The notes under the pieces: generated by a model
Database searches by the model: none
Told to the model about the DNA's origin: nothing
The model's input: the letters and a program-made list of their open reading frames with translations, nothing else
Position numbers and translations under genes: made by a program
Shown: in pieces, positions 9,387-26,405 of the stretch
How positions within the stretch are numbered: the stretch's first letter is position 1
How the letters are laid out: each line of letters opens with the position of its first letter
NCBI RefSeq assembly: GCF_014705715.1
Contig: NZ_JACXLC010000001.1
Span: 1,284,457 to 1,348,456 of the forward strand
Direction: 5' to 3'
Length of the DNA stretch: 64,000 nucleotides
DNA from: Erythrobacter rubeus
GTDB lineage: Bacteria; Pseudomonadota; Alphaproteobacteria; Sphingomonadales; Sphingomonadaceae

Positions 9387-9544
9387 GGTGAGACGCTCTT
9401 CCCACGTAATCGCCACGTAATCGGTTGTCGGAAAGTCGTGGCGTAGGTTAGACTAATCCACGGCGGAAAAACTCCAACCGTTTCAAGTCTTTGAGCGTAG
9501 TTTGGCGTAACATTTCTAAGAAACGAAAAGAGTACAAAACGCCG

Positions 9545-10168: not shown

Positions 10169-11181
10169 CTAGCAAGCTCGCTGATCCGCAGTCATCCCAT
10201 TGGCCGGACCGTCACGACCCGTCTGAATTACAGTGTTCTCTAGTACTCCAATTCCTGACACCCTAAGTGCCACCTCGTCTCCGTCTTCGAGAAACACCAT
10301 TCGCTCGAGACCACAGCCACCAGTCACTGTTCCGGAGCCGAGTACCTCTCCCGCGCGAATTGCCTCGCTGGCACTAACCCGCTCAATCATTGTCTCGAAG
10401 GAGTGGTGGATCATGCCCGAGTTGCCCGTTGAAACCACTTTCCCATTGATCGAGACTTGCATCTGGAGGTCGTAAAAATCGCCGATCTCGTCGAGCGTGA
10501 CGATACAGGGCCCCATTGCGTTCGCCCCGTCGAAGTCTTGCCCTTCGCTGGCCCCAGAAATCCCGGCAATTCGTCAAATTGTGCATCGCGTGCTGAAAAG
10601 TCGTTCCAGATTGTGAAGCCGAAAATGTGCGAGCGTGCTTCCGCGGCATCGATGTCCTTTCCGCCATTGCCAATGATGCAGGCAAGCTCGCATTCGTAAT
10701 CCATGATCGACGAATAGGCTGGCCATTCTATGGTGTCCCCCGGACCGGACACTGCGTGCCTGTTCGCCTTGTAATAAAGGGGTTGATCATACCAGGCTTG
10801 AGGAGGATCGCAGCGACCTTCGCGCTGGGCGATTTCAAGAGCTGCTTCGGGATCCTCGCCCGCACTCATGGCCTGCAGGCGCACGATGCCCTCCATTGAC
10901 TGCCTTACATGCCCTTCAAAGCACATGAAGTCGCGCATCTGGACAGGCACGGGAATGGGCGCGAGCAGACGGATGTCTGGCGAAAGATCGACCGTTCGCG
11001 CGCTTGCCCTTGCGATGATTGCGCGCCCTTCGGCCCAGCATTCCGCACCTGCTTCTATGAAAGCTTGCGTGCTTAAAAAGACGCTGTCTGAGCTTTCCTG
11101 ACTTGGGTCAAGAAGCCTGCCTTCGACCAGAAACCCCATGCGCGAATCTTCATTATTATTCTGAAATGTAACGACTTTCAT
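10169..11181 (-). pseudogene. Frameshifted fumarylacetoacetate hydrolase (FAH)-family gene
   Basis: Two overlapping minus-strand frames (11181-10411, then on to 10169) together encode one FAH-family hydrolase of about 336 residues. The first holds the metal site (Asp-Tyr-Glu-Cys-Glu and Trp-Asn-Asp-Phe-Ser-Ala-Arg-Asp). The second resumes with Met-Gly-Pro-Cys-Ile-Val and continues to the end of the fold. Adding one base near 10537, where GAAGTCTTGCC would become GAAGTCCTTGCC on the plus strand, restores Gly-Pro-Ala-Lys-Gly-Lys-Asp-Phe-Asp-Gly. So a single-base loss breaks the gene unless it is a sequencing error. It diverges from the catabolic operon and shares its control region, so it was probably part of the same pathway. 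The site is not a classical slippery sequence. Confidence 0.8.
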
Positions 11182-11232: not shown

Positions 11233-11280
11233 TTGACAATTCGTCATGAGATATCTCTCATAAGCGTGAGAGGTATCTCA
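11233..11280 (+). promoter_or_regulatory. Promoter with long palindromic operator, probable TetR site
   Basis: A TTGACA -35-like box (11233-11238) is followed by a near-perfect inverted repeat: TGAGATATCTCTCA (11247-11260) and TGAGAGGTATCTCA (11267-11280), 14 bases per arm with one mismatch and a 6-base centre. It covers the place expected for the -10 box, so a bound repressor would block transcription of the operon starting at 11326. The TetR regulator encoded second in that operon is the obvious candidate. The divergent FAH gene may be controlled from the same site. Confidence 0.65.
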
Positions 11281-11325
11281 TGACAAGGCTGGATCTTACC
11301 GGCTTGCTTGGGGAGGGAGAGAGTG

Positions 11326-13977
11326 ATGACGAAATCGATCTGGCTATCGTCGATCGGGCTTGGGGCGTTCATGATGTCGAATGCCGCACTTGCTCAAACG
11401 CAAGAGAACAGCGCGGAGACGGATGCCGCAGACACCACCATCGTCGTCACCGGTACATCCATTCGAGACGATCGCTTCCAAGCCGTCACGCCGGTCGACG
11501 TCTTCACGGAAGAGCAGATCGAACAGGCTGGCTTCGCGACTGTGACCGATCTGGTCCGCGAGATTCCGTCGAATATCGGTTCCGAAGCGAACCGCTCTGC
11601 ATTCACCCAGAACAACACTCTTGGAACCGCGCAAGTCAATTTGCGCGGGCTGGGGCTTGGGGCGACGTTGGTGCTTCTCAACGGTCGGCGCAATGTCCTG
11701 TCGGCTACCTTTGCAAATGACGGAAGCCAGTTCGTCGATATCAACCAGCTGCCACTCGGCCTGATTCAACGGACCGAAGTCGTCAAAACCGGTGCATCGG
11801 CGATCTACGGGTCGGACGCTGTTGCCGGAGTCGTGAACTTCATCACTCATCGCAATTTCGAAGGGTTGGAAATCGACGCGCAGTTCCAGACAACGACCGA
11901 AGCAAGCCAGGAAGACATTGTCGTCAATCTCCTTGGCGGTTTTGGTGCAGGCGACACGCATTTCACCTTCGCCGCGACCTATTTCGACCGTTCGGACTTG
12001 CGCTTTACCGATCGCGATTTCACCGACCAAGGCACCGAAAACGAAATCGCCACGACCAAGCCGGGCGCCTTCCTGCTGCTCGCACCTCCGGGCAACCCCG
12101 CCTTTGCTGGCACGCCGGTGGGAGTGCCCTTCGCCGATCCGGGTTGCACGAGCGCAGGCGGAAACCCCGTGGCGACACCTGGCGGACAATTCTGTCAGGT
12201 TTCGGCGCGCGATCAATTTGCACTTGTCCCGAATGAAGAGCGGATTTCCGTCTACGGCGATATCCGGCACGAAAGCCCGAGCGGCTTCGAGGGCTTCGTC
12301 GAGTTACTCTATTCTGACAGCGAAGCGAGCGTTTCCGGCCGTCCTGCCGCGCTTCCTGGCGCGGGTGCATCGGGTGCGATCATCGTCTCGCCTGCCAATG
12401 CGTTCAACCCATTCGGCGCCCCTGCAGTCTTCATCGGTCGCCCGCTCGACCTGTCGGAGGCTACTGCTACCGACCGATCCGAAAGCGAGACATTCCGCGT
12501 TGCGGTGGGTGCGGGGTATGAATTCGACAGCAGGATCAGGATCGACGCATCCTATGTCCGGGCGGAGAACGATTTCGAGCTGGTCGCGAACGATCTGCTG
12601 GCCTCCGAATTCTTCATTCCCGGAACCAACACTGTCCGTAACGATTTCAACGTGTTCGCTACCGCGCTGACCAATCCAGCACAGGCAAACGATGCCGCTA
12701 TCATCGACGCGGTTACGACCGAAGTTCCGTTTTCATTCGAGAGCAGTGTCGATGTCGTCGAACTGTCCTCCACCGGAGTGCTCGCCGAACTGGGGTCGGA
12801 GCCGCTGGGATATGCGGTGGGTGTGCAGTATCGCCGGAACCAGGCGAGTTTCGACGTGCCCGACCTTATCGAAAGCCCCGGTCAGCTCGTTTTCCTTTTC
12901 CCGCAGGCCGATTTTGAAGGCGAGGCGATCGAGGCGACTGCGATCTATGGCGAGCTGGCGATCCCCATTGGCGAGCGCATCGATGTACAGGCGGCGCTGC
13001 GCTATGAAAGCTATTCGGACGGGATCGGAGATACGCTCGACCCGAAAGTCGCAGTAACGGCGGATGTGACCGACGATCTCGTCGCGCGTGCTTCGTACGG
13101 AACTTCCTTCCGCGCGCCGACGCCATTGCAGACTGGCGGCCAGACCAGCCAGGTCGGTCCGATTGTCAATCCGTGCACCGGGCAACGCCTAGCCACCTCG
13201 TTCCTGACACGCGGCAATGGCGACCTTGAGCCCGAAAGCGCTTCGACTTTCTCCGCCGGCTTGGCCTACCGCCAACCCCGCGGCTTTCGCGCCAGCGTCG
13301 ATTACTGGAATTACGACTACGAGGACGTGATTACGCGGCAATCTGTCGAGGCGGTCGCAGCAAACGCGCAGTGCGTTGAAGTCGCCCCAGGCGTTTTTGT
13401 GCCGGTAGCCGAGGGCATCACGCTCAATCCAGTGACCGGGCAGATCGCCGAAATCGCGGTGGATTTCGTAAACGCCGGCGGCATCGAGACCGATGGCCTC
13501 GACGTTGCTGTTGGCTACGATTTCGATCTCGGAGGCGCTGGAGGGCTTAGCGCAGATCTGGCCTTCACGTGGATTACCAGCTTCGATGTGTCGGAAACAC
13601 CGGGCGCCCCGCTCGTTGACCGGCTCGGCAGTCGCAATGTGACGAGTTTCACTCGCCCGACGCCCGAGCTTCGCGGCAATTTCCGCCTCTCTTGGGAGCT
13701 GGACGATCACCGGCTCACCGCCATCGTCCGCCACACCGATTCCTATCGAGATGATCTCAACGCCGACGCGCGGATCGACAGCCAGACCACGCTCGATCTG
13801 CAATACGCATTTAATCTCGGCTCGCTGTTCTCGCAGCGCGACACCGAATTGCGCATCGGCGCGATCAACGTGACCAACGAAGACCCACCTTTCGTCAATG
13901 ACCGCGGCGGCTATGATCCGCTTGTGGCCGACCCGCGCGGGAGGCTCGTCTACGTAGCCTTCTCGACGGGTTTCTGA
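11326..13977 (+). CDS. TonB-dependent outer-membrane receptor
   Basis: An 883-residue receptor: signal peptide (about residues 1-23, ending Ala-Leu-Ala-Gln), a TonB-box-like Thr-Ile-Val-Val-Thr-Gly, a plug domain (about 40-160, with RGLG and GSDAVAGVVN), then a beta-barrel ending in Gly-Phe. It resembles the large sphingomonad receptors of the iron-independent nutrient type. The ATG at 11326 has a strong GGAGGGAGAG ribosome binding site; an upstream in-frame start at 11308 lacks one. As the first gene of the catabolic operon it probably imports the substrate, perhaps an anionic sulfated aromatic, across the outer membrane. It lies two bases ahead of the TetR gene. Confidence 0.9.
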   Translation: MTKSIWLSSIGLGAFMMSNAALAQTQENSAETDAADTTIVVTGTSIRDDRFQAVTPVDVFTEEQIEQAGFATVTDLVREIPSNIGSEANRSAFTQNNTLGTAQVNLRGLGLGATLVLLNGRRNVLSATFANDGSQFVDINQLPLGLIQRTEVVKTGASAIYGSDAVAGVVNFITHRNFEGLEIDAQFQTTTEASQEDIVVNLLGGFGAGDTHFTFAATYFDRSDLRFTDRDFTDQGTENEIATTKPGAFLLLAPPGNPAFAGTPVGVPFADPGCTSAGGNPVATPGGQFCQVSARDQFALVPNEERISVYGDIRHESPSGFEGFVELLYSDSEASVSGRPAALPGAGASGAIIVSPANAFNPFGAPAVFIGRPLDLSEATATDRSESETFRVAVGAGYEFDSRIRIDASYVRAENDFELVANDLLASEFFIPGTNTVRNDFNVFATALTNPAQANDAAIIDAVTTEVPFSFESSVDVVELSSTGVLAELGSEPLGYAVGVQYRRNQASFDVPDLIESPGQLVFLFPQADFEGEAIEATAIYGELAIPIGERIDVQAALRYESYSDGIGDTLDPKVAVTADVTDDLVARASYGTSFRAPTPLQTGGQTSQVGPIVNPCTGQRLATSFLTRGNGDLEPESASTFSAGLAYRQPRGFRASVDYWNYDYEDVITRQSVEAVAANAQCVEVAPGVFVPVAEGITLNPVTGQIAEIAVDFVNAGGIETDGLDVAVGYDFDLGGAGGLSADLAFTWITSFDVSETPGAPLVDRLGSRNVTSFTRPTPELRGNFRLSWELDDHRLTAIVRHTDSYRDDLNADARIDSQTTLDLQYAFNLGSLFSQRDTELRIGAINVTNEDPPFVNDRGGYDPLVADPRGRLVYVAFSTGF

Positions 13978-13979
13978 CC

Positions 13980-14591
13980 ATGATACGCACTGCCGACCTT
14001 TCTGCGAACGAGTTTAAACGCAGCATCCGTGACGCGAGTCTTGAGTTGTTCGCCAAGGAGGGCGTGCAAGGAGTGTCTGTTGCGAAGATCTGCCGCCATG
14101 CGCAGGTCGCGAACGGAACCTTCTATAATTTTTACAAGAACAAGGGTGAACTGGTCGACGAGTTCCTGAAGGAGGCCTACTCCTCGCTTGCCGCAAAGCT
14201 ACGAGAGGCCAATACGCTCGAAGGATCGGCGGCCGAGCTCCATCGCAACGATGTTAAGACCATCGTGCGGTTCACGGCCGAAAACCGCGCGCTCATTTCC
14301 ATTGCCATTAATGACGAAGGCGCTCGCAAGCTGGCCGATCGCGACCTCCACGAACTTTTTGTCGAACAGCGGGCCGATGCCTTTCGCGAAGGCATGGCAG
14401 TTGGCTTCTACAGGCCGGGGATCAATCCCGAATTCCTTGCGCGGTGCGAGATCGGCTTGATGTCCGAGATGCTCAATCATTGGGTAGAAAGCGACCTCGC
14501 CATGCCGGAGGAAGAGCTGGTCGACGCACTCGTCGCCGTGCGTCTGCGACTGACCAACGGGCTTACGGAGCCGGAGCGACCCGATGGTTAG
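13980..14591 (+). CDS. TetR/AcrR-family regulator
   Basis: A 203-residue TetR protein. The N-terminal HTH (residues about 12-58) has the family pattern Ala-Lys-Glu-Gly-Val-x-Gly-Val-Ser-Val-x2-Ile, then Asn-Gly-Thr-Phe-Tyr-Asn-Phe-Tyr-x-Asn-Lys. The remaining helices form the ligand and dimer domain. It starts two bases after the receptor stop and overlaps the first sulfatase by eight bases, so it is translated within the operon. The most likely target is the palindrome at 11247-11280, giving autorepression relieved by a pathway substrate or intermediate. The ligand is unknown. Confidence 0.9.
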   Translation: MIRTADLSANEFKRSIRDASLELFAKEGVQGVSVAKICRHAQVANGTFYNFYKNKGELVDEFLKEAYSSLAAKLREANTLEGSAAELHRNDVKTIVRFTAENRALISIAINDEGARKLADRDLHELFVEQRADAFREGMAVGFYRPGINPEFLARCEIGLMSEMLNHWVESDLAMPEEELVDALVAVRLRLTNGLTEPERPDG

Positions 14592-16302
14592 CCGCAGGAC
14601 TGTTCTCGCAGGCCTCGGCGCCGCAGGTGTTGCCGGCGCGGGCTACGTGGCCGTCGACCGGATGCGCGTCGCACCCGAGCGGCAACGCATGACGCTCGCC
14701 ACGACAGGCCGTCAGCCCAACATCATCCTCGTAACCTCCGATCAGGAACGCAGCTGGGATCAGATGCCGCCCGGCTTTATCGAAACGCACTGCCCAGCCC
14801 GCGCGAGGCTGGCGGCGCGGTCGATGAACTTCACCCGTGCGCAGTCACCCAGCCAGCTGTGCTCAACCGCGCGCGGTACGATCTATACAGGCCGCCACCC
14901 GCAGAATTCGTCGGTCTGGGAGAACGTGCCCATACCTTATGCGACCGATATGAAGGAGGCGATCCCGACGATGGGGACGCTGTTCCAGGACGCGGGCTAC
15001 CAGACGGCCTATTGTGGCAAATGGCACCTCAGCCGCCTCGGCCAGCGCGGCGAACCTTATGCGCCGGAACGCGTCGCGGAAATCGTCTCGCAGGCAGGGT
15101 TCGACATCGCGCTGACCGAGAAGGAAGTCGACGGTCCTTTTGCGGGCTACCGCTACGACAGCAAGACGGTCGAGCAGGCGCTGGCTCAGGCCGCACGGCG
15201 CGGTGAGGATGGCAAGCCGCTCTTCATGGCGGTCAACCTCGTGAACCCGCACGACATCATGTATTATTCGTCTGGCGATGCGATGACCGCTTCGCGCAAG
15301 GTCGATTTGCAACCTATCATGCGGCCGCCGCGCGATCCGCTCTACGATGAGGATCTGGGCTACGACGTAATCGGGCCTTGGGGCCCAGCAACGCGCGCCG
15401 GGAAGCCGCCCGCCGTCGCCGAATATGTCCGCGCCTACGAGACGATCTTCGGCGAGATGGCCTATGACGACGAACGCGTCGCGCGTGACTTCCAGAACTA
15501 TTACTGGAACGCGATCCGCGACTGCGATCGCAGCCTCGCCCTGCTGATCGACGGGCTCGAAGACATGGGCGCGCTCGATGACACGATCGTCGTTTTCACT
15601 TCCGACCATGGCGAATTCTTGGGTGCGCACGGTCTTCGCGGAAAAGGCGTCACGGCCTATCGCGAGGCAAGCGCGATACCGCTTATGGTTTCGGCGCCAG
15701 ATGGTCCACGCGGTGAAACGAGCGATGCGCTTGTCAGCCTCGTCGATCTCGTTCCCACTCTCCTCGGCCTTGCCGGTATCGATACGGGGCCGGTGATCAC
15801 CGAAGCGCAGCTTGCGGGCCAAGATCTCTCAAAGGTCGCGATGGGCGAAGCGGGCCCCGGTCCGCGGGATGAGGACGGTGTGCTGCTCCACTGGACCAGC
15901 CTTGCGTTCATCGATCACAAGGCGGCCAATGCCTTTGGCGATGTCGCGAGCCGCACCGGGCTGGGTCAGGCCTACGCCTATTGGCAGATGCAACGCAACG
16001 AGATGGCGGATGCGGCGGACAAGCGTGGACAGATGCGCGGCGTGTTCGACGGGCGCTACAAGTTCGCGCGCTATTTTGCGCCGAACCAGCACCACCGGCC
16101 CGATGACGCGGCAACGCTTACAGCGATGAACGACCTCGAACTGTACGATGTCGAAGCGGACCCGAGCGAGATCGTGAACCTCGCCGCCGACCCTGCTTCG
16201 GCCCCGCTCGTTGCGAACATGAACCAGAAACTCAACCGCCTGATCGATCGCGAAATCGGCGTCGATGACGGCTCCTTCCTTCCCGGTTTTGCGAGGGCAT
16301 GA
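14584..16302 (+). CDS. Tat-exported sulfatase (type I, Cys)
   Basis: A 572-residue sulfatase of the alkaline phosphatase superfamily that should hydrolyse a sulfate ester. Ser-Arg-Arg-Thr-Val-Leu at the N-terminus followed by a Gly/Ala-rich stretch is a twin-arginine signal, so it is probably exported folded to the periplasm. The active-site motif reads Cys93-Ser-Thr-Ala-Arg97, followed by Gly and Tyr-Thr-Gly-Arg. This departs from the usual Cys-x-Pro/Ala-x-Arg by having Thr at the third position. Asn-Ile-Ile-Leu-Val-Thr-Ser-Asp near residue 46 and Thr-Ser-Asp-His-Gly near residue 339 are the metal-binding parts. Cys needs conversion to formylglycine before export; no maturase gene is in the window. 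It overlaps both neighbours. Confidence 0.88.
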   Translation: MVSRRTVLAGLGAAGVAGAGYVAVDRMRVAPERQRMTLATTGRQPNIILVTSDQERSWDQMPPGFIETHCPARARLAARSMNFTRAQSPSQLCSTARGTIYTGRHPQNSSVWENVPIPYATDMKEAIPTMGTLFQDAGYQTAYCGKWHLSRLGQRGEPYAPERVAEIVSQAGFDIALTEKEVDGPFAGYRYDSKTVEQALAQAARRGEDGKPLFMAVNLVNPHDIMYYSSGDAMTASRKVDLQPIMRPPRDPLYDEDLGYDVIGPWGPATRAGKPPAVAEYVRAYETIFGEMAYDDERVARDFQNYYWNAIRDCDRSLALLIDGLEDMGALDDTIVVFTSDHGEFLGAHGLRGKGVTAYREASAIPLMVSAPDGPRGETSDALVSLVDLVPTLLGLAGIDTGPVITEAQLAGQDLSKVAMGEAGPGPRDEDGVLLHWTSLAFIDHKAANAFGDVASRTGLGQAYAYWQMQRNEMADAADKRGQMRGVFDGRYKFARYFAPNQHHRPDDAATLTAMNDLELYDVEADPSEIVNLAADPASAPLVANMNQKLNRLIDREIGVDDGSFLPGFARA

Positions 16303-17243
16303 CTATGGCAAGAGTGCTGCGCACCCCCGAGGATCGGTTCGAGGCTTTGCCCGATTATCCTTTTGCGCCGAACTACATCGATATCGACGATCCCGATCTG
16401 GGGCCCATTCGCCAGCATTATCTCGACGAGGGGCCGCAGGACGGGCCGCTCGTCCTCCTGATGCATGGCGAACCGAGCTGGTCCTACCTCTATCGCTCGA
16501 TGATACCGCCGCTGGTGGAGGCCGGTTTTCGCGTCATCGCTCCGGACCTCATCGGGTTCGGCAAGTCGGACAAACCTGCTCGCAAGTCGGACTATTCCTA
16601 TGCCCGCCATGTGGAGTGGATGCTGTCCTTCTTGGAGCAGCTGGACCTCGATAACATTACGCTCTTCTGCCAGGATTGGGGCGGACTGATCGGACTGCGC
16701 CTGGTGGCTGCCGAGCCGGATCGCTTCGCGCGGCTCGTCATCAGCAACACTGGTCTTCCCGAAGGCGCCCCGATGTCCAAGCAGTTCATGAGGTGGCGCA
16801 GGATGTCGCGGTATTCGCCGGTCTTCCCGATCGGCCGCATCCTCAACCGGGCCAGCACGCGCGAGCTCAGCGAAGGTGAAATGGCGGCCTACGATGCCCC
16901 CTTCCCCTCACGCAAATACAAGGCCGGCGCGCGCATTTTCCCGAGCCTGGTGCCAATTGCGCGCAACTATCCGGGCGCGAAGGACAACCGCGAGGCTTGG
17001 AAGATCCTGCGCACCTTCGACCGCCCTGTACTGACGCTGTTTGGTGACCAGGACCCGGTGACTGCGGGATGGGACGAGATCGTGCGCAACCGGATACCGG
17101 GTGCCAAGGGACAGGCGCATCGTACCATCGAGGGCGGGCACCACTTCATCCAGGAGGACGCCGGACCCGAGCTTGCCGAGGCGATCATCGGCTTTGCAAA
17201 GGGCTCCGAAACGCAAACGCAGGCACGAGAGGCTGCACAATGA
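16299..17243 (+). CDS. Haloalkane dehalogenase-like alpha/beta hydrolase
   Basis: A 314-residue alpha/beta hydrolase closely following the haloalkane dehalogenase pattern. It has the oxyanion-hole segment His-Gly-Glu-Pro-Ser-Trp61, nucleophile Asp126 with adjacent halide-binding Trp127 in CQDWGG, acid Asp250/Asp252 in FGDQDP, and catalytic His282 in HHFIQED. The Asp nucleophile followed by Trp separates dehalogenases from esterases (Ser) and supports carbon-halogen hydrolysis to alcohol plus halide. Trp166 in the cap could be the second halide ligand. No signal peptide, so cytosolic. It shares an ATGA overlap with the sulfatase and with the next gene. An epoxide hydrolase is the alternative, but that family usually has other cap residues. 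Confidence 0.85.
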   Translation: MTMARVLRTPEDRFEALPDYPFAPNYIDIDDPDLGPIRQHYLDEGPQDGPLVLLMHGEPSWSYLYRSMIPPLVEAGFRVIAPDLIGFGKSDKPARKSDYSYARHVEWMLSFLEQLDLDNITLFCQDWGGLIGLRLVAAEPDRFARLVISNTGLPEGAPMSKQFMRWRRMSRYSPVFPIGRILNRASTRELSEGEMAAYDAPFPSRKYKAGARIFPSLVPIARNYPGAKDNREAWKILRTFDRPVLTLFGDQDPVTAGWDEIVRNRIPGAKGQAHRTIEGGHHFIQEDAGPELAEAIIGFAKGSETQTQAREAAQ

Positions 17244-18184
17244 CGGCCCGATCGCATCCATCCATAGCCAAGGCGATCGACGTCGCCGATGTTCGTTTCG
17301 CGCTGCCGGATCTCGCCAAAGCGGAGGCATTCCTGATCGATTTCGGCTTTGCTGTCGAACGGAGCGATGACCGCCTGATCGCTCGGGGTGCCCATGGCAA
17401 CATCGCCTATCTTGCCGAAGCATCAGACGACGATGAAGCGCGATTTGCCGGCTTCTCGTTTGCCGCCACCTCAGCGAACGAAATCGAAGCGTTGGCGGAT
17501 GAGCTAGATGCCGAAACGCGTGAGAACGGCCAAGGATTGTCCGTCAGCTTGATCGATCCGGACGGGTTCAGCGTACGTGCACTCAACCCAGAGCACACAC
17601 CCGGGCCAAAGGCTCCGCCTGTGGGACGCAATGAAAGCGGTACGCGCACCCGCACCCGATCGCGCCTCGCTGTACCCAAGGGTCCTTCGCAGGTGCTGAG
17701 GCTCGGCCATGTCGTGCTTCAGGTGACAGATTTCGAGAGCAGCCTTGCCTGGTATCAGGACCGTTTCGGGCTCCTCATGTCCGACCGCGTGCTCGGCCCC
17801 GACGGCAAGACGACGGTTGGCGCTTTCCTGCGCTGCGACCGCGGCGAGGAAGTGACCGACCATCACAGCCTGTTCCTCATGCAAAGCCCGGGCGGCGTCG
17901 CGAAAATCGAGCACGCGGCATTCGAAGTGGCCGACTTCGACAGTTTGATGGCGGGCGCAGATCACCTCAAGGCGCAGGGCTATGAACAGGAATGGGGCAT
18001 CGGACGGCACCTGCTCGGCGCGCATATTTTCGATTACTGGCGCGACCCCTTCGGTTTCACACTTGAACACTGGACGGATGGCGACCTCATCGACTCCAGC
18101 GATCCGGAAGGCACGCATGACTTGATGGCCTTGCTCGGATCGCAATGGGGACCACCGCACGCAATGCTGGGAGGCGGAAAATGA
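17240..18184 (+). CDS. Two-domain VOC protein, putative extradiol dioxygenase
   Basis: A 314-residue protein with two vicinal-oxygen-chelate halves. The N-terminal half (about 13-118) lacks clear metal ligands. The C-terminal half (about 153-280) keeps all three: His157 in RLGHVVLQ, His225 in KIEHAAF and Glu276 in FTLEHW. This is the arrangement of extradiol ring-cleavage dioxygenases such as catechol 2,3-dioxygenases and chlorohydroquinone dioxygenases, which open dihydroxylated aromatic rings with O2 and Fe(II). A long Arg/Thr-rich linker (130-148) joins the halves. The start at 17240 is chosen because it overlaps the dehalogenase stop as ATGA; the frame is open 57 codons further upstream. 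Its FAH and GST neighbours fit a ring-cleavage pathway. Confidence 0.82.
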   Translation: MTARSHPSIAKAIDVADVRFALPDLAKAEAFLIDFGFAVERSDDRLIARGAHGNIAYLAEASDDDEARFAGFSFAATSANEIEALADELDAETRENGQGLSVSLIDPDGFSVRALNPEHTPGPKAPPVGRNESGTRTRTRSRLAVPKGPSQVLRLGHVVLQVTDFESSLAWYQDRFGLLMSDRVLGPDGKTTVGAFLRCDRGEEVTDHHSLFLMQSPGGVAKIEHAAFEVADFDSLMAGADHLKAQGYEQEWGIGRHLLGAHIFDYWRDPFGFTLEHWTDGDLIDSSDPEGTHDLMALLGSQWGPPHAMLGGGK

Positions 18185-19062
18185 AACTCGCAACGTTCCG
18201 ACACGGAGGAAAAGTCGGACTTGGCGTAGTAGAGAGCGGTGACGGCTCTCCAGCCATCCGCGACCTACGCGGCGCAGAAGACATTGCGGGCGACATGATC
18301 GCTTTGATGAACGGTGGCGAAAGCGCGCTAGACCAGCTGCGCACAGCAGCGGCAGATGCGCCGGCCATCGCGCTCGATGAAGTGGAACTGCTGGCCCCCG
18401 TCCTCAATCCGGGCAAGATCCTCGCCATCGGGCTGAATTACGCCGATCACATCAAAGAGTCTGGGATGGGCACACCCGAGCACCAGATCTGGTTCAACAA
18501 GCAGCGCACCTGCGTGAACGGTCCCTATGCCGACATCAACATGCCCGCGGTCTCGGACAAGCTCGATTTCGAAGCCGAGATGGTCACCGTGATCGGCAAG
18601 ACCTGCAAGCATGTGCCGCGCGAGCGCGCGCATGAGGTCGTGTTCGGCTTCACCTGCGGGAACGATGTTTCGGTCCGTGACTGGCAGCTGAGAACGCCCA
18701 CGATGACAATCGGTAAGAGCTTCGACACGCATGGTCCCACAGGGCCTTGGATCGTTACACCGGATGAATTGGAAGATTGCCACAATGTCGGCTTCATCTG
18801 CACCGTGAATGGCGAGGAAAAGCAGCGCTCGAACACGAAGCACCTTGTCTTCGACGTCTACGACCAGATCGTCGAACTGACCAAGGCCTTCACGCTGGAG
18901 CCCGGCGATCTGATCTTCACCGGGACATCGGGCGGTGTTGGCGTGGCAAAAAAGCCCCCGGAATTCCTGGAGGTCGGCGATGTCGTACGGATCGAGTTCG
19001 ACGGCATCGGCCATATCGAAAACCGGGTCGCCCGTGAAAATGCTGAGACGAGGATAGGCTGA
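18181..19062 (+). CDS. FAH-family hydrolase/isomerase
   Basis: A 293-residue fumarylacetoacetate hydrolase-family enzyme, probably cleaving or isomerising the acyl-pyruvate product of ring opening. The family motifs are visible: Lys-Ile-Leu-Ala-Ile-Gly-Leu-Asn-Tyr at the domain start (about residue 80), Asp-Phe-Glu-Ala-Glu supplying metal ligands (about 130), Gly-Asn-Asp-Val-Ser-Val-Arg-Asp (about 160), a Lys-Ser-Phe-Asp loop, and Gly-Asp-Leu-Ile-Phe-Thr-Gly-Thr near the end. Residues 1-70 form the small N-terminal domain. The ATG at 18181 overlaps the previous stop and begins the conserved part. Possible activities include fumarylpyruvate hydrolase; the exact substrate cannot be told. Confidence 0.87.
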   Translation: MKLATFRHGGKVGLGVVESGDGSPAIRDLRGAEDIAGDMIALMNGGESALDQLRTAAADAPAIALDEVELLAPVLNPGKILAIGLNYADHIKESGMGTPEHQIWFNKQRTCVNGPYADINMPAVSDKLDFEAEMVTVIGKTCKHVPRERAHEVVFGFTCGNDVSVRDWQLRTPTMTIGKSFDTHGPTGPWIVTPDELEDCHNVGFICTVNGEEKQRSNTKHLVFDVYDQIVELTKAFTLEPGDLIFTGTSGGVGVAKKPPEFLEVGDVVRIEFDGIGHIENRVARENAETRIG

Positions 19063-19880
19063 TGAGTGGCGATGCGGGCCTGACGCTGTATCACAACGAC
19101 CTCTCCACCTGTGCGCAGAAGGTCCGTATCGCCTTGGCCGAAAAGGCGCTCGATTGGGAGAGCGTCGAGCTGGACCTGAGAGCGGGGGAGCAGAAGACGC
19201 CGGAATTCCTGGCGCTCAATCCGGCTGGTGTCGTACCGGTTCTCGTACATGGTGAGACGACTGTCACCGAATCCACGATCATCCTCGAATATCTCGAAGA
19301 CGGCTTTCCCGGCAGGCCGCTCCGGCCCGAAAGCGCTGCGGCGCGTGCGTTAATGCGCGGATGGATGAAGCGGCTCGACGATCGTCTCCATGCGATGACC
19401 GGCGTGTTGTCCTTCGCGCTGGCGTTCCGGCACGAATACCTTGCTCTCCCGGACAAGGGCCAGAAGCTCATCGACGGCACGCCCGATCCGATGGCGCGTG
19501 CGGCGAAGATGGGCCTGATCCAGCAAGGCGCAGATTTTCCGGCAGTGGGTACGGCGCTTCAGGAATTCGATGCCGCACTCGGCGAGCTTGACGCGGTGCT
19601 GGCGGAATCGTCCAGAGGCTTTATCGCGGGCTCCTATTCGCTCGCCGAAGCTGCGTGGATTCCGTACGTCAACCGGCTTGAGCATCTGGGGCTTGGATGG
19701 CTTTGGGATGACAGGCAGCGCGTAGCCAAGTGGTGGGACGACGTGCGCGCGCGGGATAGCTATTCCGTCGCTATCGCCAATGTCGAAAAGCCCGACCGCG
19801 TGCGCCTGATGCACGAGAAGTCGGCGGAAGTGTCCGATCGTATGGCCAGCTGGCGCGAAGAGCTTGCGCAGGCCGGGTGA
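19062..19880 (+). CDS. Zeta-like glutathione S-transferase
   Basis: A 272-residue GST. The thioredoxin-like half (7-88) carries Ser15-Thr-Cys17-Ala-Gln-Lys-Val-Arg, a variant of the zeta-class Ser-Ser-Cys motif found in maleylacetoacetate/maleylpyruvate isomerases and also like the catalytic Ser-x-Cys of tetrachlorohydroquinone dehalogenases. NPAGVVPVLVH and Thr-Glu-Ser-Thr form the glutathione site. The C-terminal helical half (95-260) is longer than usual. Between the ring-cleaving enzyme and a sulfatase, a glutathione-dependent cis-trans isomerase or reductive dehalogenase is most plausible. The start overlaps the FAH stop (TGATG). Confidence 0.85.
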   Translation: MSGDAGLTLYHNDLSTCAQKVRIALAEKALDWESVELDLRAGEQKTPEFLALNPAGVVPVLVHGETTVTESTIILEYLEDGFPGRPLRPESAAARALMRGWMKRLDDRLHAMTGVLSFALAFRHEYLALPDKGQKLIDGTPDPMARAAKMGLIQQGADFPAVGTALQEFDAALGELDAVLAESSRGFIAGSYSLAEAAWIPYVNRLEHLGLGWLWDDRQRVAKWWDDVRARDSYSVAIANVEKPDRVRLMHEKSAEVSDRMASWREELAQAG

Positions 19881-21439
19881 GCGGCCGCCCGAACATTCTG
19901 CTGATCATGACCGACCAGCACCGCGCCGACCATACCGGTTTCGGAGGCAATCGCGTGGTGCAGACACCGCATCTCGACGGGCTGGCTGCGCGCGGGACGG
20001 TGTTCGACAAAGCGTATGTTGCCAATCCGATCTGCATGCCGAACAGGGCCTCGATCATGACCGGCCTGATGCCCTCGGCACACGGTTCGACGATGAACGG
20101 CATTTCGCTCGACTGGGGCGCGCGCACCTTTGCGCGCAGTGCACGGGAGGCAGGCTATCGAACCGCGCTCATCGGGAAATCCCACCTGCAGATCATGAAC
20201 GACGTGCCCGAGGCGACACGGCGGGTTCTGGGTGACGACCCCCTCGAAGATGGCATGGCGGCGAGCTGGCCGGAGGGCTGGGATGCGCTCGAAGACATGG
20301 ACGCATGGCGCGCGGGCGAGGTTGAGGTTCCATCCGATTTCTACGGCTTCGACCATGTCGGCCTGACCATATTCCATTCGGATTTGTGCTCGGGCCACTA
20401 TTACCGCTGGCTGCTAGATAAAGGGGTCGATCCAGAGACCTTGCAGGGGCCGAAGGTCGCGCGCGAAAGCGGGTTCGAAACGCAGCAGGTGTGGCACACT
20501 TCGACGCCCGAAGAGCTCTATCCTACCACCTATGTGGCCGAAGAAGCGTGCGCTTTTCTCGATACGCAGCGGGAGAGCGACGATCCGTTCCTCCTCAAGG
20601 TCAGCTTCCCCGATCCGCACCATCCCTTCACCCCGCCCGGCAAATATTGGGACATGTACTCGCCCGAGGACATCGAACTGCCGGCGACGTTTTTCGACGA
20701 CCACGCCAAGTCACCCAGCTTCATTCGCTTGTTAGCCAGCGAGCGCGGGGACGGCGCCCATCTCATGATGCCGTTCAGCCCCACCGAAGCGCAGTTCAAA
20801 CGCATGGCGGCCGCCGAATACGGCATGATCACCATGATCGACGATGCGGTGGGAATTATCCTCGGCAAGCTGGAGGAGATGGGGGTTGCGGACGATACGA
20901 TTGTCATCTTCACCTCCGACCACGGCGACATGTTCGGCGATCACGGCCTGATGTTGAAAGTGGGAATGCATTACGAAGGCTGTATCAGGGTGCCGCTGGT
21001 TGTGGCTGGCCCCGGCATCGCCGCCGGACGCACCGATGCGCTTGCCTCGTCGACCGATATTGCTGCCACGATCATGGCAATGACGGGGAATCGCCCGAGC
21101 TACAATATGACCGGCCGCGACCTTACGCCTATCCTCGCGGACCACGACGCTAGAGTCCGCGACAGCATCCTAATCGAGGAAGAGCATATCTTCCCCGATC
21201 CGACTATCGGCGCACCGATTAATTTGCGCTCGCTCGTGACCGGGAACGCACGTCTTACTGTGCGGTACGGCAATGCTGGTGACGGGGAACTCTACCAGAC
21301 CGATCAGGACCCCGACGAGTTGCACAACAGGTTCGGCGACAAAGATCATGCTGCGCTTCGCCAGGAGATGACCAACGCGCTCAATCAGGCGATGATCGAG
21401 GCTGCTCGAACCGTCCGCAAGCCGAAGGCGCAAGCATGA
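19877..21439 (+). CDS. Cytosolic sulfatase (type I, Cys)
   Basis: A 520-residue sulfatase with the standard active-site motif Cys53-Met-Pro-Asn-Arg57, where Cys is matured to formylglycine. The metal-binding Met-Thr-Asp-Gln-His-Arg near residue 11 and Thr-Ser-Asp-His-Gly-Asp-Met-Phe-Gly-Asp-His-Gly near residue 350 are intact. There is no signal peptide; the protein begins almost directly with the core strand, so it acts in the cytosol, unlike the Tat-exported sulfatase of the same operon. The GTG start overlaps the GST stop as GTGA. It could remove a second sulfate after import or act on choline-sulfate-like or aryl sulfates. Confidence 0.9.
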   Translation: MSGRPNILLIMTDQHRADHTGFGGNRVVQTPHLDGLAARGTVFDKAYVANPICMPNRASIMTGLMPSAHGSTMNGISLDWGARTFARSAREAGYRTALIGKSHLQIMNDVPEATRRVLGDDPLEDGMAASWPEGWDALEDMDAWRAGEVEVPSDFYGFDHVGLTIFHSDLCSGHYYRWLLDKGVDPETLQGPKVARESGFETQQVWHTSTPEELYPTTYVAEEACAFLDTQRESDDPFLLKVSFPDPHHPFTPPGKYWDMYSPEDIELPATFFDDHAKSPSFIRLLASERGDGAHLMMPFSPTEAQFKRMAAAEYGMITMIDDAVGIILGKLEEMGVADDTIVIFTSDHGDMFGDHGLMLKVGMHYEGCIRVPLVVAGPGIAAGRTDALASSTDIAATIMAMTGNRPSYNMTGRDLTPILADHDARVRDSILIEEEHIFPDPTIGAPINLRSLVTGNARLTVRYGNAGDGELYQTDQDPDELHNRFGDKDHAALRQEMTNALNQAMIEAARTVRKPKAQA

Positions 21440-22797
21440 GCGATCAGGCGACAAAGCTGCCCGCGAAATACAAGCTCAGCTATGGCGTGAGCGAATTCGG
21501 CAAGGCGCTCTTCATTCACGGCCCGAACTTGGTCTGGCTTTTCTTCCTGACCGAGGTGCTGGACATTCCTCCTGCGACGGCAGGACTGGTCATCCTCGCA
21601 CCGATGATCTGGGACGCCGTGACCGATCCACTGGTCGGATACTGGATGGACCGCACGCGATTGCCGTGGGGGAAATACGTCCCCTACATCTTCTTCGCGG
21701 CCCCGATTGCCTCGCTCGCCTTTGTGTTCTTCTTCACCGATTTCGGGCTTCAGGGGCCGGCAGCGGCATGGAGCGCGTTGTTGGTCGCGATCTTCTTCAG
21801 GACCGCGCTGACCGTAGTCGACGTGCCGCATAACGGCCTGATGGCGCGGGTCACATCATCGTCTTCGGAAAGGTCGGCTATTGCCGGGGCGAAGATGTTC
21901 TTCAACGCCTTCGCAATGGTCGCCATCGCAATCGCGGTTCGACCCATTCTTTCAGGCGATGGGAGCAATTACGACCGGTTCACGCTCTATGCTGGCATAG
22001 GCGCGGTCATCGCCGTCTTGGCGTTATGGCAGTGCGCCTGGTTCTTCCGGCGCCTCGATACCGTCGAGACCGGTCGGGGCGAGGCACAACTCACGCCGAT
22101 GGAGGCGTGGTCGAACCTCAGCACCAATCACTATCTCTGGATATTGCTGGCCGTCGGGATCGTCGCGGTCATGTTGCTGCCGAGCTTTGCGAAAACGGTC
22201 CTATATTTCGCGAAGTACAATTTGGGCGATGAAGCTTTCGGCGGTATTGCGCTCTTGACGTTCACCCTGGCGACGGCGCTTTCCATTCCGCTGTGGGGTC
22301 TCACGGGGCGAAAGGTGGACAAGGCGCGTTTGCTTCAGCTTGCACATGCCACGATCCTGACGGGATTGGTCTTGTTCTATCTCTACGACGGTACCGCGAG
22401 GCCTGTGCTGCTCGGCCTCATGGCGATCATCGGTATCGGCGCAGGCGGCGCCAACGTATTGACCCTGGCGCTCGTGCCCGACGTCGTAGAATACGGACAA
22501 TGGAAGACCGGCAAGCGGGTGGAGGCCGGAGTGTTTGGATGCTTCACCTTTTCCGCAAAAGCGGGGAACGGGCTCGGTGCAGGGCTACTGGGCCTTTTGC
22601 TTGGCGCAGTCGGTTTTGTCGCCAACACCGATCAGTCGCCGGAGACTCTGACCGGCATCAAGACCATCATGACGCTACTGCCCGCTGCGGGCTCGGCGAT
22701 CGTTATCATGCTGCTGGCGCGCTTCGACCTCGGTCACGAGGCTCATGCCCGGCTGGTTTCGGAAATCGGACAGGCAGAGCCGGCGGGAGCGCGCTGA
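21436..22797 (+). CDS. GPH-family MFS transporter
   Basis: A 453-residue protein with about 12 hydrophobic segments, of the glycoside-pentoside-hexuronide:cation symporter type. The N-terminal Leu-Ser-Tyr-Gly-Val-Ser-Glu-Phe-Gly-Lys and the loop Asp-Pro-Leu-Val-Gly-Tyr-Trp-Met-Asp-Arg-Thr near residue 68 are family signatures. It should import an organic solute with a cation across the inner membrane. Family substrates are usually sugars, but relatives in catabolic operons of other compounds exist. Its place after two sulfatases suggests uptake of the partly desulfated substrate. It overlaps the sulfatase stop as ATGA and ends three bases before the last GST. Confidence 0.88.
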   Translation: MSDQATKLPAKYKLSYGVSEFGKALFIHGPNLVWLFFLTEVLDIPPATAGLVILAPMIWDAVTDPLVGYWMDRTRLPWGKYVPYIFFAAPIASLAFVFFFTDFGLQGPAAAWSALLVAIFFRTALTVVDVPHNGLMARVTSSSSERSAIAGAKMFFNAFAMVAIAIAVRPILSGDGSNYDRFTLYAGIGAVIAVLALWQCAWFFRRLDTVETGRGEAQLTPMEAWSNLSTNHYLWILLAVGIVAVMLLPSFAKTVLYFAKYNLGDEAFGGIALLTFTLATALSIPLWGLTGRKVDKARLLQLAHATILTGLVLFYLYDGTARPVLLGLMAIIGIGAGGANVLTLALVPDVVEYGQWKTGKRVEAGVFGCFTFSAKAGNGLGAGLLGLLLGAVGFVANTDQSPETLTGIKTIMTLLPAAGSAIVIMLLARFDLGHEAHARLVSEIGQAEPAGAR

Positions 22798-22800
22798 CCG

Positions 22801-23559
22801 ATGGGTGTGCATCAGACCAACAGCACGCTCGCGAAATCGCTTGTCGGTGTTCACTTGTTTCATTTCTTCATGTCGAACTGCTCTCAGCGGGTCCGCTTCG
22901 CTCTCGAGGAGAAGGGCATCGAGTGGACCTCGCACCATTTGAACCTGCCCGCGCGCGAGCACATGACCGCCGAATATCGCGAGCTGAACCCGAACGGCGT
23001 TGTCCCGACCCTCGTGCACGACGGCACGGTCATTATCGAATCCAACGACATCATTGCCTATATCGATGGAGCTTTCGAAGGCCCGCACCTCAGCGCACAA
23101 TCCGATAGGACGGCGGTGCAGCTGGAAGAGCTTCTCATGCTTTCGGACGAAGCGCAGCCCGCGATCAAGGTGCTCAGTCACGAGTTGCTGTTCAAGCCAG
23201 TTCGCAAGGTCACAGCCGATGATGTGGCGGCCATGGGGTCAGAGGGAGCGCGCCCCGAGCTCGTCGCATTCATGCGGGACTTCAGCGAGGATGGGGCGGC
23301 CTGGCAGGAGCGTGTGGCGATCGCGCAGCAAAACATGCGGGGCATGCTCGCCCGGCTCGACGCCTGCCTCGGCGATGCGGGATCATGGCTGCTGGGCGAG
23401 CAATTCGGACTCGCGGACATCAGCTGGAGCGTCAACGCGCTGCGGCTCATGCAAGCGCGCTTCGACACAAGCGATTGGCGCGCGTTCGAGGAGTGGCGCG
23501 ATCGCGTCGTCGCGCGCCCGGCTTTCGTCAGCGCGGTGACGCAATACGCACCGGGCTGA
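22801..23559 (+). CDS. Second glutathione S-transferase of the catabolic operon
   Basis: A 252-residue GST with a 17-residue N-terminal extension. The active-site segment is Ser25-Asn-Cys27-Ser-Gln-Arg-Val-Arg, again a zeta-type Ser-x-Cys. LNPNGVVPTLVH and Ile-Glu-Ser-Asn complete the glutathione site; the C-terminal helical domain runs to the end and contains ADISW. It is only distantly similar to the GST at 19062, so the pair did not arise by recent duplication and probably performs two reactions, such as isomerisation and thiolytic dehalogenation. It is the last gene of the operon; no clear terminator follows. Confidence 0.85.
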   Translation: MGVHQTNSTLAKSLVGVHLFHFFMSNCSQRVRFALEEKGIEWTSHHLNLPAREHMTAEYRELNPNGVVPTLVHDGTVIIESNDIIAYIDGAFEGPHLSAQSDRTAVQLEELLMLSDEAQPAIKVLSHELLFKPVRKVTADDVAAMGSEGARPELVAFMRDFSEDGAAWQERVAIAQQNMRGMLARLDACLGDAGSWLLGEQFGLADISWSVNALRLMQARFDTSDWRAFEEWRDRVVARPAFVSAVTQYAPG

Positions 23560-23674: not shown

Positions 23675-24658
23675 ATGAAATACGCACAATCCCTTATCCA
23701 GCTTGGCGCTACCGCATTAACTGTATCTGTTGCCGGTGTCTCGTCGGCAGCACTTGCTGAGGGCGTGGATGCGGGCTCGCTGATCGAGAATACCGCTACG
23801 GCAACCTACGATGGCGGTGCCGGTTCGGTCACGGTTGATTCCAACACCGTCACAGTTCGGGTTGATGAGCTTCTGGACGTAACCACGACGTCGCTCGACG
23901 CCGGGCCGATCAGCGCAGCACCGGGTGAGGTCGTGTTGACCTTCGAGGTCACAAACACCGGAAATGGACCGGAAGCGTTCGAATTGACCGCAAATCCCAC
24001 CGTTCCCGGAAACGAATTTGAGACGGTGATTGAAAGCATCGCAGTCGATACCAACGAAAACGGCGTTTATGACGAAGGTGTCGATGAGATCCTTACCGGA
24101 CCAGAGACAACCTCTTCGCTCGCGGCTGACGACGCCATCACGGTCTTCGTCATCGCCACTGTGCCATCCGGTGTTGCCGACGGTGACCAGAGCCAAGTGC
24201 AGCTGACTGCCGCGGCTCAAACCGGAACCGGCACGCCTGGCACCGTTTTTGCCGGTGCAGGTGTTGGTGGTGCAGACGCAGTGGTCGGCACGACCGCTGC
24301 GACCGCAAGCGCCACCGGATCGCTCGCGGTCGGTATCACCACGGTCGATCTCACTAAGTCCGCAACTATTGCCGATCCCTTTGGTGGCGACAGCGCCGTT
24401 CCCGGTGCAGTGGTCACCTTCACGATCGTCGCCGAAGTTGCCGGAAGCGGCTCTGTGGACGACCTCGTCGTCGCCGACGCCATCCCAACCGACACAACAT
24501 ACGTTGCCGGAACGCTCGCGCTCGGCGGCGCGTCGCTGACCGATGCCGCGGGTGACGACGCAGGTCAGGCGTCCAACGCATCCGGCATCAGCGTCGATCT
24601 CGGCACTGTTTCGGGCGGGACATCGCAAACAATCACTTTTGACGTAACGATAAACTAA
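23675..24658 (+). CDS. Exported DUF11-type repeat protein, operon gene 1
   Basis: A 327-residue secreted protein: signal peptide 1-29 (Ala-Leu-Ala-Glu), then beta-rich, acidic, nearly Lys/Arg-free sequence. After the signal comes a short motif, Leu-Ile-Glu-Asn-Thr-Ala-x-Ala-Thr-Tyr-x-Gly-Gly, shared with genes 3 and 4 of this operon. Two Ig-like beta-sandwich units follow, the second (about 225-327) being a DUF11 domain with a VPGAVVTFTI strand. A short Asp-x-Asn-Glu-Asn-Gly loop near residue 127 may bind calcium. It ends in Val-Thr-Ile-Asn, as does the protein of gene 3. Probably a cell-surface structural subunit; no enzyme domain. Confidence 0.72.
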   Translation: MKYAQSLIQLGATALTVSVAGVSSAALAEGVDAGSLIENTATATYDGGAGSVTVDSNTVTVRVDELLDVTTTSLDAGPISAAPGEVVLTFEVTNTGNGPEAFELTANPTVPGNEFETVIESIAVDTNENGVYDEGVDEILTGPETTSSLAADDAITVFVIATVPSGVADGDQSQVQLTAAAQTGTGTPGTVFAGAGVGGADAVVGTTAATASATGSLAVGITTVDLTKSATIADPFGGDSAVPGAVVTFTIVAEVAGSGSVDDLVVADAIPTDTTYVAGTLALGGASLTDAAGDDAGQASNASGISVDLGTVSGGTSQTITFDVTIN

Positions 24659-24678
24659 AACAAACCGGGGGTAAAACC

Positions 24679-25185
24679 ATGAATACATTCGCAAAATTTG
24701 CCGCAGCATTATGTGCAACATCGCTTTTCGCAGCGCCTGCCTTCGCTCAGGACGCGGGGCCAGGCGAAACATTGGGGGCGACGACCCCGGTCGAATTGTC
24801 GGGCGATGTGCTTCTGGCAAAAACCGTTTCCGACGCCTCTGGCGTTGAGCGCATCGAACTTGTCGAGCCCGACCTTATCGTGCCAGGCGACCGTCTGGTC
24901 TTCGGTACGATGTACAAGAACAGCAGCGCCGAAGCCGTCACCAACTTCACGGTCACGAACCCGCTGCCCGAGGCCGTCCGTCTTGCACCCGATGCCGATG
25001 CCGAACTGGTCGTGTCGGTCGATGGGGCAAAAACATGGGGCATTTTGGCCAACCTCACCATCGTTTCCGCAAACGGTGCTGAACGATCGGCGATTCATGC
25101 CGATGTGACGCATGTTCGCTGGACGCTTGACGCTATCGCGCCCGGCGAAAGCGGCCGTCTCGAATATCAAGCCATCATTCGCTGA
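24679..25185 (+). CDS. Small exported DUF11-like protein, operon gene 2
   Basis: A 168-residue secreted protein with signal peptide 1-24 (Ala-Phe-Ala-Gln) and one DUF11-like beta-sandwich (about 50-168): Leu-Leu-Ala-Lys-Thr-Val, then PGDRLVFGTMY, NFTVTNPLPEAV and a final Gly-Arg-Leu-Glu-Tyr-Gln. It lacks the N-terminal motif of genes 1, 3 and 4. It follows gene 1 by 20 bases and has a GGGGG-containing ribosome binding site. Its single domain and short length suit a minor subunit, adaptor or periplasmic chaperone for the larger partners; this is inference. Confidence 0.68.
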   Translation: MNTFAKFAAALCATSLFAAPAFAQDAGPGETLGATTPVELSGDVLLAKTVSDASGVERIELVEPDLIVPGDRLVFGTMYKNSSAEAVTNFTVTNPLPEAVRLAPDADAELVVSVDGAKTWGILANLTIVSANGAERSAIHADVTHVRWTLDAIAPGESGRLEYQAIIR

Positions 25186-25253
25186 CTAGCGGAAGGTAAC
25201 CGCCAAGTCCTGCGGGCGGTCTTTCGACGCGGGGCACACGCAAGGAAAATGAA

Positions 25254-26387: not shown

Positions 26388-26405
26388 GATCGTCCAGGGA
26401 AAATC

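Follow-up and report, generated by a model that had tools for sequence, protein, structure and literature searches.

The lin pathway brings together a haloalkane dehalogenase (HLD), a GST and a VOC dioxygenase in the trio LinB, LinD and LinE, of which LinB is a subfamily II HLD. A second kind of system, the MhpA/Fde/Ifc-type clusters, is organized around a VOC-FAH pair that often has a TetR gene as its neighbour; the fde cluster presumably contains an FAH gene. Excerpts of PMC11069340 describe an FAD monooxygenase and a glyoxalase-type dioxygenase as common to the Variovorax isoflavone and Herbaspirillum naringenin clusters, and the likeness to Fde drawn here rests on this partial source together with the shared gene make-up.

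The operon described here lies within a 64-kb stretch of DNA (the window). It resembles the lin pathway in having an HLD, a GST and a VOC dioxygenase together, but differs from it in that its HLD is of subfamily I, its VOC protein is nearest to BphC/HpaD types, and its sulfatases, receptor and operon structure set it apart. With the MhpA/Fde/Ifc-type clusters it shares the VOC-FAH pair and the TetR gene, whereas the hydroxylase is absent and two sulfatases, an HLD, two GSTs, a TonB receptor and a GPH symporter are extra. Among open-licence papers we found no description of these enzymes arranged together, in agreement with the original prediction of an apparently undescribed arrangement, and none of a gene set for sulfate-capped halogenated phenols. 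Judged by its gene content, it appears to be a variant extradiol aromatic-catabolism operon, whose substrate we infer to be a sulfated, probably halogenated catechol.

Operon layout and its counterpart in Parvularcula maris

Ten plus-strand genes spanning 11326-23559 are all open and tightly packed, and Pfam and NCBIfam models agree with the family of each. Their nine junctions measure, in gene order, +2, -8, -4, -4, -4, -1, -4, -4 and +3 bases. The single co-directional catabolic operon that had been predicted is supported. The features are as follows.

10169-11181, minus strand: divergent FAH-family gene, frameshifted here (PF01557; intact P. maris orthologue)
11243-11284, no strand: inverted repeat, predicted as a probable TetR operator (18-nt arms; two 16-mers, 11246-11261 and 11266-11281)
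11326-13977, plus strand: TonB-dependent outer-membrane receptor (PF00593, PF07715; 70% identity to P. maris)
13980-14591, plus strand: TetR-family regulator (PF00440; 58% identity to P. maris)
14584-16302, plus strand: sulfatase 1, S1 fold, with a twin-Arg-like leader and the motif C-S-T-A-R (PF00884; 67% to P. maris)
16299-17243, plus strand: HLD, subfamily I (NF002043, 462 bits; 71% to P. maris)
17240-18184, plus strand: two-domain VOC extradiol-type dioxygenase (PF00903; full set of metal and acid/base residues)
18181-19062, plus strand: FAH-family hydrolase (PF01557; 66% to P. maris)
19062-19880, plus strand: GST a, Ser-x-Cys (GST_N domains; 56% to P. maris)
19877-21439, plus strand: sulfatase 2, S1 fold, without leader, with the motif C-M-P-N-R (PF00884; 66% to P. 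maris)
21436-22797, plus strand: GPH-family symporter (PF13347; TIGR00792 above cut-off; 55% to P. maris)
22801-23559, plus strand: GST b, Ser-x-Cys (GST_N, GST_C; no match in the P. maris locus)

The nine genes from the receptor to the GPH transporter have identically ordered counterparts, 54-71% identical in sequence, in Parvularcula maris (order Parvularculales; locus L053). Since they are repeated in this way in the genome of another family, the arrangement exceeds what chance would produce. The two operons also share the divergent FAH gene and the candidate operator; they differ in that P. maris lacks GST b and has the divergent FAH intact. The expectation that the gene order would be conserved elsewhere holds for P. 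maris, but its predicted spread over Sphingomonadales was not found: no other VOC protein above 51% identity was detected in the genomes searched, 298 from the window's family and 114 from its genus.

Upstream of the receptor, the divergent FAH-family gene is split into two overlapping open reading frames in different frames; the intact P. maris orthologue, an FAA_hydrolase protein of 324 aa, can be aligned with it at 53% in frame -1 and at 61% in frame -3. The adjacent inverted repeat has arms that are 94% complementary around a 6-nt spacer. Each divergent promoter, in the window and in P. maris, holds two copies of a 16-bp palindrome, and the 16-mers are similar. A joint statistic of palindromy and sharing reached 4, a value equalled in none of 2000 dinucleotide shuffles, the statistic having been picked after the motif was known; a plain comparison of the best 16-mers of both promoters was not significant (13 of 100 shuffles were as good). 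The palindrome is probably the TetR operator. Neither the frameshifted gene nor the inverted repeat had figured in the original prediction, nor had the off-consensus motif of sulfatase 1 discussed below.

Ring-cleavage enzymes, the absent hydroxylase and the dehalogenase

The VOC protein carries the intact His/His/Glu metal site that had been predicted (H157, H225, E276), along with H209, H257 and Y266, and all six are identical in 8 of 8 aligned rows. We take the roles of residues in the VOC protein, the sulfatases and the HLD to be those of BphC, S1 sulfatases and DhlA. None of the named equivalogs tested (HpaD, BphC, catechol 2,3-dioxygenase, HsaC) was passed, the best score being 62.9 bits against 321.4 for HpaD. 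Its closest relatives are BphC/HpaD-type enzymes, and the six with solved structures include no PcpA or LinE by name. The window and P. maris copies are sisters in the VOC tree (100/100) on a long stem. Both Ser-x-Cys GSTs were likewise confirmed (S15-x-C17 and S25-x-C27), and for GST b the motif is the same in all 8 rows aligned.

In the operon the VOC gene lies directly beside the FAH gene, and elsewhere such loci usually include an FAD hydroxylase. Outside the window 56 VOC loci were counted, and 44 of them have one within 9 kb (38 at 200 bits or more); locus L048, among the 57 analysed, yielded no VOC row, probably because a large open reading frame took a better label, and was left out of the count. 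Three hydroxylase queries gave no match in the 64 kb of the window, and P. maris is one of the 12 VOC loci without an FAD hydroxylase within 9 kb. Because 44 of the 56 other loci have one, the missing gene is meaningful, and it supports the prediction that the substrate would arrive already dihydroxylated and, as we read it, sulfate-capped. Outside the window and P. maris pair, the absence alone is weak, since hydroxylase-free loci are scattered across the tree (8 changes) and two of the 12 (L115 and L151) have one flank that extends no further than about 2 kb.

The usual company of the VOC-FAH pair suits a different substrate. The operon could be a sulfate-using offshoot of an MhpA/Fde-type hydroxylase-VOC-FAH pathway, acting on a sulfated, non-halogenated polyphenol of flavonoid- or phenylpropanoid-like kind; the HLD would then serve elsewhere, for example by acting now and then on a halogenated analogue or by carrying out a different hydrolysis. 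The two hydroxylases tested are of MhpA type, and the isoflavone and naringenin clusters in the excerpts of PMC11069340 combine an FAD monooxygenase with a glyoxalase-type dioxygenase. A search with sulfatase 1, ignoring VOC, in 385 genomes of the class speaks for the link of this sulfatase to ring cleavage: the top two non-self matches (in G417, and one of those in G520) adjoin VOC-FAH pairs. That these loci have a hydroxylase and a GST and lack an HLD speaks for the polyphenol reading. In 13 further matches, VOC was found in none of the 11 regions examined. We regard the non-halogenated reading as less likely than not; against it stands an HLD that retains all checked subfamily I residues, is 71% identical to that of P. 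maris and recurs at an FAH-VOC locus in a third lineage.

By its sequence the HLD is a subfamily I enzyme with all checked catalytic residues intact. It scores 462 bits against the subfamily I model NF002043 (cut-off 265) and falls below the cut-offs of both other HLD models (142 bits against 241 for NF002938), so the HLD part of the predicted analogy to the lindane trio does not hold. Relatives with solved structures are 4mj3, 5esr and 6f9o. E58, D126, W127, W166, D252 and H282 are present; D126 is presumably the nucleophile, H282 the histidine, D252 the acid, and W127 and W166 the halide-binding tryptophans. In a tree of 17 rows, the window, P. maris and G433 enzymes form one group, in which support is modest (80/93; 80% of 200 bootstrap trees) and the branch of G433 is long; the host's second HLD falls outside it. 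Both partners come from VOC-FAH-sulfatase clusters. An alpha/beta hydrolase of G774 (L126), considered as a further HLD, was under every HLD cut-off.

The G433 cluster (L119/L232) comprises an HLD-like gene, two sulfatase-like genes, PhyH, a TonB receptor, HLD, FAH, VOC and ADH. Its HLD (55%), FAH (60%) and VOC (42%) resemble those of the window and its receptor does so weakly, but the gene order differs, PhyH and ADH are partners, the sulfatases are 28-32% identical to sulfatase 2, and no GST is recognisable; a 277-aa protein tested as a GST did not have that identity supported.

Sulfatases and their maturation

Both sulfatases match PF00884 and contain the D-Q...D-H metal set, the Cys, the Arg and the Lys/His. 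The signature given in excerpts of PMC6189696 is (C/S)-X-(P/A)-X-R; sulfatase 2 fits it with C-M-P-N-R, and sulfatase 1 departs from it at position 3 with C-S-T-A-R (CSMAR in P. maris). A twin-Arg leader pattern matches sulfatase 1 and sulfatase 2 has no leader, for which reason the predicted order of desulfation, outside and then inside, fits. The pattern gave no match on the P. maris sulfatase 1 reading frame, whose start is unsure. The best two relatives of sulfatase 2 (41% and 38%) and the best plasmid relative of the receptor (32%, Sphingobium TomTYG65) sit in unlike neighbourhoods, and nothing was inferred from them about the substrate.

That two sulfatases are at work, as predicted, is unproven, because neither FGE nor anSME was found in the window genome: its sole PF03781 match is EgtB-like, and TIGR03942 had no match. 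The sole PF03781 match in the P. maris genome is also an EgtB-like protein. Together with the frameshifted divergent FAH, this could be indicative of an operon that is partly dead in its host, with unmatured sulfatases and one broken FAH. Such decay appears improbable, as all ten operon genes are open, the five enzymes checked have intact residues, and P. maris, also without an FGE found, keeps its divergent FAH intact. In addition, according to the excerpts of PMC6189696, choline sulfatase without the modification retains turnover, and Cys sulfatases are modified in E. coli by a route yet unidentified. A genome that carries S1 sulfatases without a recognisable FGE or anSME bears on a further maturation route or on sulfatases that work unmodified.

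Proposed pathway, substrate and genomic setting

Taken together, the gene families suggest an inducible operon for the catabolism of a small aromatic with a masked, sulfate-capped catechol, probably halogenated, a reading that we hold to be about evenly poised. The TonB receptor would bring the sulfate ester into the periplasm, where the exported sulfatase 1 would strip one sulfate; the GPH symporter would import the product, and the cytoplasmic sulfatase 2 would set free the second hydroxyl. Extradiol opening of the catechol by the VOC enzyme, isomerisation or reductive dehalogenation with glutathione by a Ser-x-Cys GST, and hydrolysis of the ring-opened product by FAH may follow. TetR would repress the operon through the palindrome, and binding of a pathway compound would lift the repression. 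The original prediction placed ring dehalogenation before cleavage, which the chemistry argues against: the HLD mechanism is SN2 (PMC10503415), so the halide would leave an sp3 carbon, in the side chain or the ring-opened product. The operon holds no recognisable gene for steps beyond the FAH reaction.

Two sulfatases with a receptor and a symporter would also suit sulfur scavenging from sulfate esters, the ring enzymes merely detoxifying the phenols released. This we consider highly improbable: genes for ring opening and hydrolysis under a regulator of their own exceed the needs of detoxification, and the seawater from which P. maris came is rich in sulfate.

A halogenated substrate of algal origin, as originally suggested, is a guess. 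A compound of this kind exists in lanosol-4,7-disulfate (excerpts of PMC9322897), and such red-algal bromophenol sulfates agree with the double sulfate as well as with the catechol but do not fit a simple HLD step, because their bromines are on the ring. At its most specific, and with only a small chance of being right, the proposal would be a cross-order regulon with the operator ATGAGAGGTNNCTCAT, mineralising halogenated, doubly sulfate-capped marine-algal catechols through S1 sulfatases without a known formylglycine-making enzyme. To our knowledge, the natural substrates of many HLDs are unknown; together with its candidate operator, the conserved operon offers a concrete handle on them and on a gene set for sulfate-capped halogenated phenols.

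GC content is 0.60-0.63 at about 12-24 kb, 0.53-0.57 leftward and 0.56-0.62 rightward, which is not decisive. At 9558-9589, beyond an integrase (8145-9416), the 3' end of a Lys-tRNA (CTT) is repeated, which marks the right end of a probable island of 26 kb with the intact tRNA to its left. A placement of the operon within a genomic island was considered and rejected, there being no sign of an island that holds it; because the tRNA copy marks the island's right end, the operon lies just outside it.

Operon structure and its recurrence in Parvularcula maris

The ten-gene operon of the original prediction is borne out by open genes, family matches and end-to-end junctions, which measure, in order, +2, -8, -4, -4, -4, -1, -4, -4 and +3 bases. 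The features concerned are the following:

10169-11181, - strand (divergent): second FAH-family gene, frameshifted, upstream of the operon
11243-11284: inverted repeat between the divergent FAH gene and the receptor gene; its two 18-nt arms are 94% complementary
11326-23559, + strand: ten-gene operon, all reading frames open, good family matches, genes abutting; TonB receptor, TetR regulator, sulfatase 1, haloalkane dehalogenase (HLD), extradiol-type dioxygenase (VOC), FAH, Ser-x-Cys glutathione transferase-family protein (GST) a, sulfatase 2, GPH symporter, GST b

The HLD, the VOC, the FAH and both sulfatases have the residues that their catalysis requires. An intact orthologue of the divergent FAH matches the window in two frames, through residues 1-226 and 206-319. 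Seven plasmid records gave weak matches to 24 kb of the window (three Sphingomonas, one Qipengyuania, one Sphingobium and two others), in line with an origin in Sphingomonadales, the order to which Qipengyuania belongs.

The gene order recurs outside this genome. A scan of the VOC protein against the genomes of 84,980 species, which detects close relatives only, returned three loci, including one in Parvularcula maris (order Parvularculales) with the same order from the divergent FAH to the GPH symporter.

Identity of P. maris proteins to those of the window
Divergent FAH 53%; TonB receptor 70%; TetR 58%; sulfatase 1 67%; HLD 71%
VOC 54%; FAH 66%; GST a 56%; sulfatase 2 66%; GPH 55%

GST b has no match at the P. 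maris locus, and the divergent FAH is intact there (324 aa). Further VOC searches covered 298 family, 114 genus and 376 class genomes of the window and 299 genomes of the P. maris order, in overlapping samples that each count the carrier genome; the best other VOC identities were 51%, 47%, 50% and 50%, respectively. The full gene set was absent from all VOC neighbourhoods fetched in these samples, which represent part of the matches, and operons lacking a VOC would be missed by this approach. Nothing relevant on these enzymes together was found in the open-licence literature, and the arrangement is apparently undescribed so far.

The inverted repeat holds two 16-mers, ATGAGATATCTCTCAT and GTGAGAGGTATCTCAT, and the divergent region of P. 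maris carries ATGAGAGGTCTGTCAT and ATGAGAGGTCGCTCAT, which rank first and second among the 16-nt palindromes there. Four palindromic 16-mer pairs are common to both regions, and at least four occurred in 0 of 2000 dinucleotide shuffles (largest value 1), by a statistic picked after the motif had been seen. A simpler best-16-mer test of both promoters was not significant, with 13 of 100 shuffles equally good. The palindrome is probably a TetR operator.

A run of probably secreted proteins lies directly 3' of the operon (23675-31622), its largest member (1738 aa) having weak DUF11-like matches. On the other side, a tyrosine integrase (8145-9416) and a copy of the Lys-tRNA(CTT) 3' end (9558-9589) delimit a probable 26-kb island on its right, the intact Lys-tRNA(CTT) ending at position 1267923 of contig C1 of the window genome.

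Neighbourhoods of the shared enzymes

We examined 57 loci outside the window (L033-L054, L087-L088, L111-L127 and L142-L157), all but L048 with a VOC row. In 44 of the 56, an FAD hydroxylase match scoring 60 bits or more is no further than 9 kb from the VOC; with a threshold of 200 bits the number is 38. All four such hydroxylases scanned with Pfam (L035, L039, L043, L087) contain FAD_binding_3, and both tested with NCBIfam pass NF004829, a model of the 3-(3-hydroxyphenyl)propionate hydroxylase subfamily. Among five plasmid relatives with annotation, three carry the hydroxylase, VOC and FAH trio, the other two having other oxygenase-type genes. Since most VOC loci include a hydroxylase, the norm of this family is to hydroxylate, cleave and hydrolyse. 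P. maris is among the 12 rows without one, two of which are close to a contig end, and three hydroxylase queries found no match anywhere in the 64-kb window. In the window and P. maris operons the first enzyme of the norm is missing and sulfatases are present instead. Their VOCs are sisters, supported at 100/100, and share a long stem of 1.43 changes per column, a pattern suggestive of specialisation for a particular substrate.

When sulfatase 1 was searched in 385 class genomes irrespective of the VOC, matches were found in 12, the window genome counted. The two best others, in genomes G417 (45%) and G520 (43%, one of its matches), have a VOC, FAH, hydroxylase and Ser-x-Cys GST within about 4 kb; the remaining 11 of the 13 regions fetched, from 15 other matches in all, showed no VOC match. 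In G478 a VOC lies about 20 kb from the sulfatase 1 match. Close relatives in further VOC loci, from G774 of the same genus (53%) and from G163 (50%, 7.7 kb away), were fetched through the VOC and are thus not independent of it. At the G774 locus (L126, 9314-14238) a VOC, FAH, alpha/beta hydrolase and sulfatase 1 cluster lies close to a TonB receptor gene; this cousin of the window operon has no subfamily I HLD. DUF1800 genes lie near this cluster (3605-5164) and that of P. maris (L053, 1-2816), accompanied by DUF1501 in the latter.

Relatives of the HLD were detected in 45 of the 376 class genomes searched, that of the window included. Neither the VOC nor the FAH had a match in any of the 14 other HLD regions fetched (L218-L231), which include the second HLDs of the window genome and of G433; sulfatase 2 had a weak match in one. 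In a phylogeny of 17 HLDs, the window, P. maris and G433-cluster copies group together (80/93; 80% of 200 bootstrap trees), and the window genome's second HLD falls outside, paired with that of a genus mate. The G433 cluster (L119/L232) comprises, in this order, an HLD-like gene, two sulfatase-like genes, PhyH, a TonB receptor, an unknown 277-aa protein, HLD, FAH, VOC and ADH; HLD, FAH and VOC therefore recur together in a third lineage, although in an arrangement different from that of the window.

Proposed pathway and substrate

Judged by its gene content, the operon would encode a sensible chain. Uptake would be followed by outer desulfation, import and inner desulfation, then by extradiol cleavage of the ring. 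Next, the product would be isomerised or dehalogenated with glutathione, hydrolysed by the FAH and dehalogenated hydrolytically. The most likely substrate is a sulfate-masked catechol. The original prediction stands in part, as to a real, conserved and apparently undescribed operon, but not in placing the HLD ahead of ring opening: one study gives HLDs an SN2 mechanism (PMC10503415), which makes a ring halogen an unlikely target. Lanosol-4,7-disulfate, which is among the major metabolites extracted from the red alga Vertebrata lanosa (PMC9322897), illustrates that the wanted type of compound exists in nature; because the ring carries its bromines, it would depend on the GST or on later steps.

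Sulfatase maturation

The sulfatase model PF00884 has four matches in the window genome, which is 100% complete. Its sole PF03781 (FGE-type) match, a protein with an HEQQH motif adjoining a gene that we take from its motifs to be EgtD-like, is presumably EgtB-like, and TIGR03942, the anSME model, has no match in this genome. The draft genome of P. maris likewise has one PF03781 protein only, EgtB-like. Both genomes have S1 sulfatases, and in each the search for PF03781 turned up just the EgtB-like protein. Of the 12 further genomes that hold relatives of sulfatase 1, 11 have a PF03781 match scoring 179 bits or more, that of G433 having an internal stop, and 7 of the 12 show a CxxxxCxRYR-type signature, a mark of FGE, in the fetched loci. 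The operon sulfatases may be active without a recognised maturase, since one report describes an unmodified choline sulfatase as slow yet multiple-turnover, and E. coli as maturing sulfatases by an unidentified maturase (PMC6189696). Sulfatase 1 carries the motif C-S-T-A-R. Among its five closest relatives, four have CSMAR and one CATAR; in 11 more distant ones the third motif position is Pro in four, Ala in two and Ser in five.
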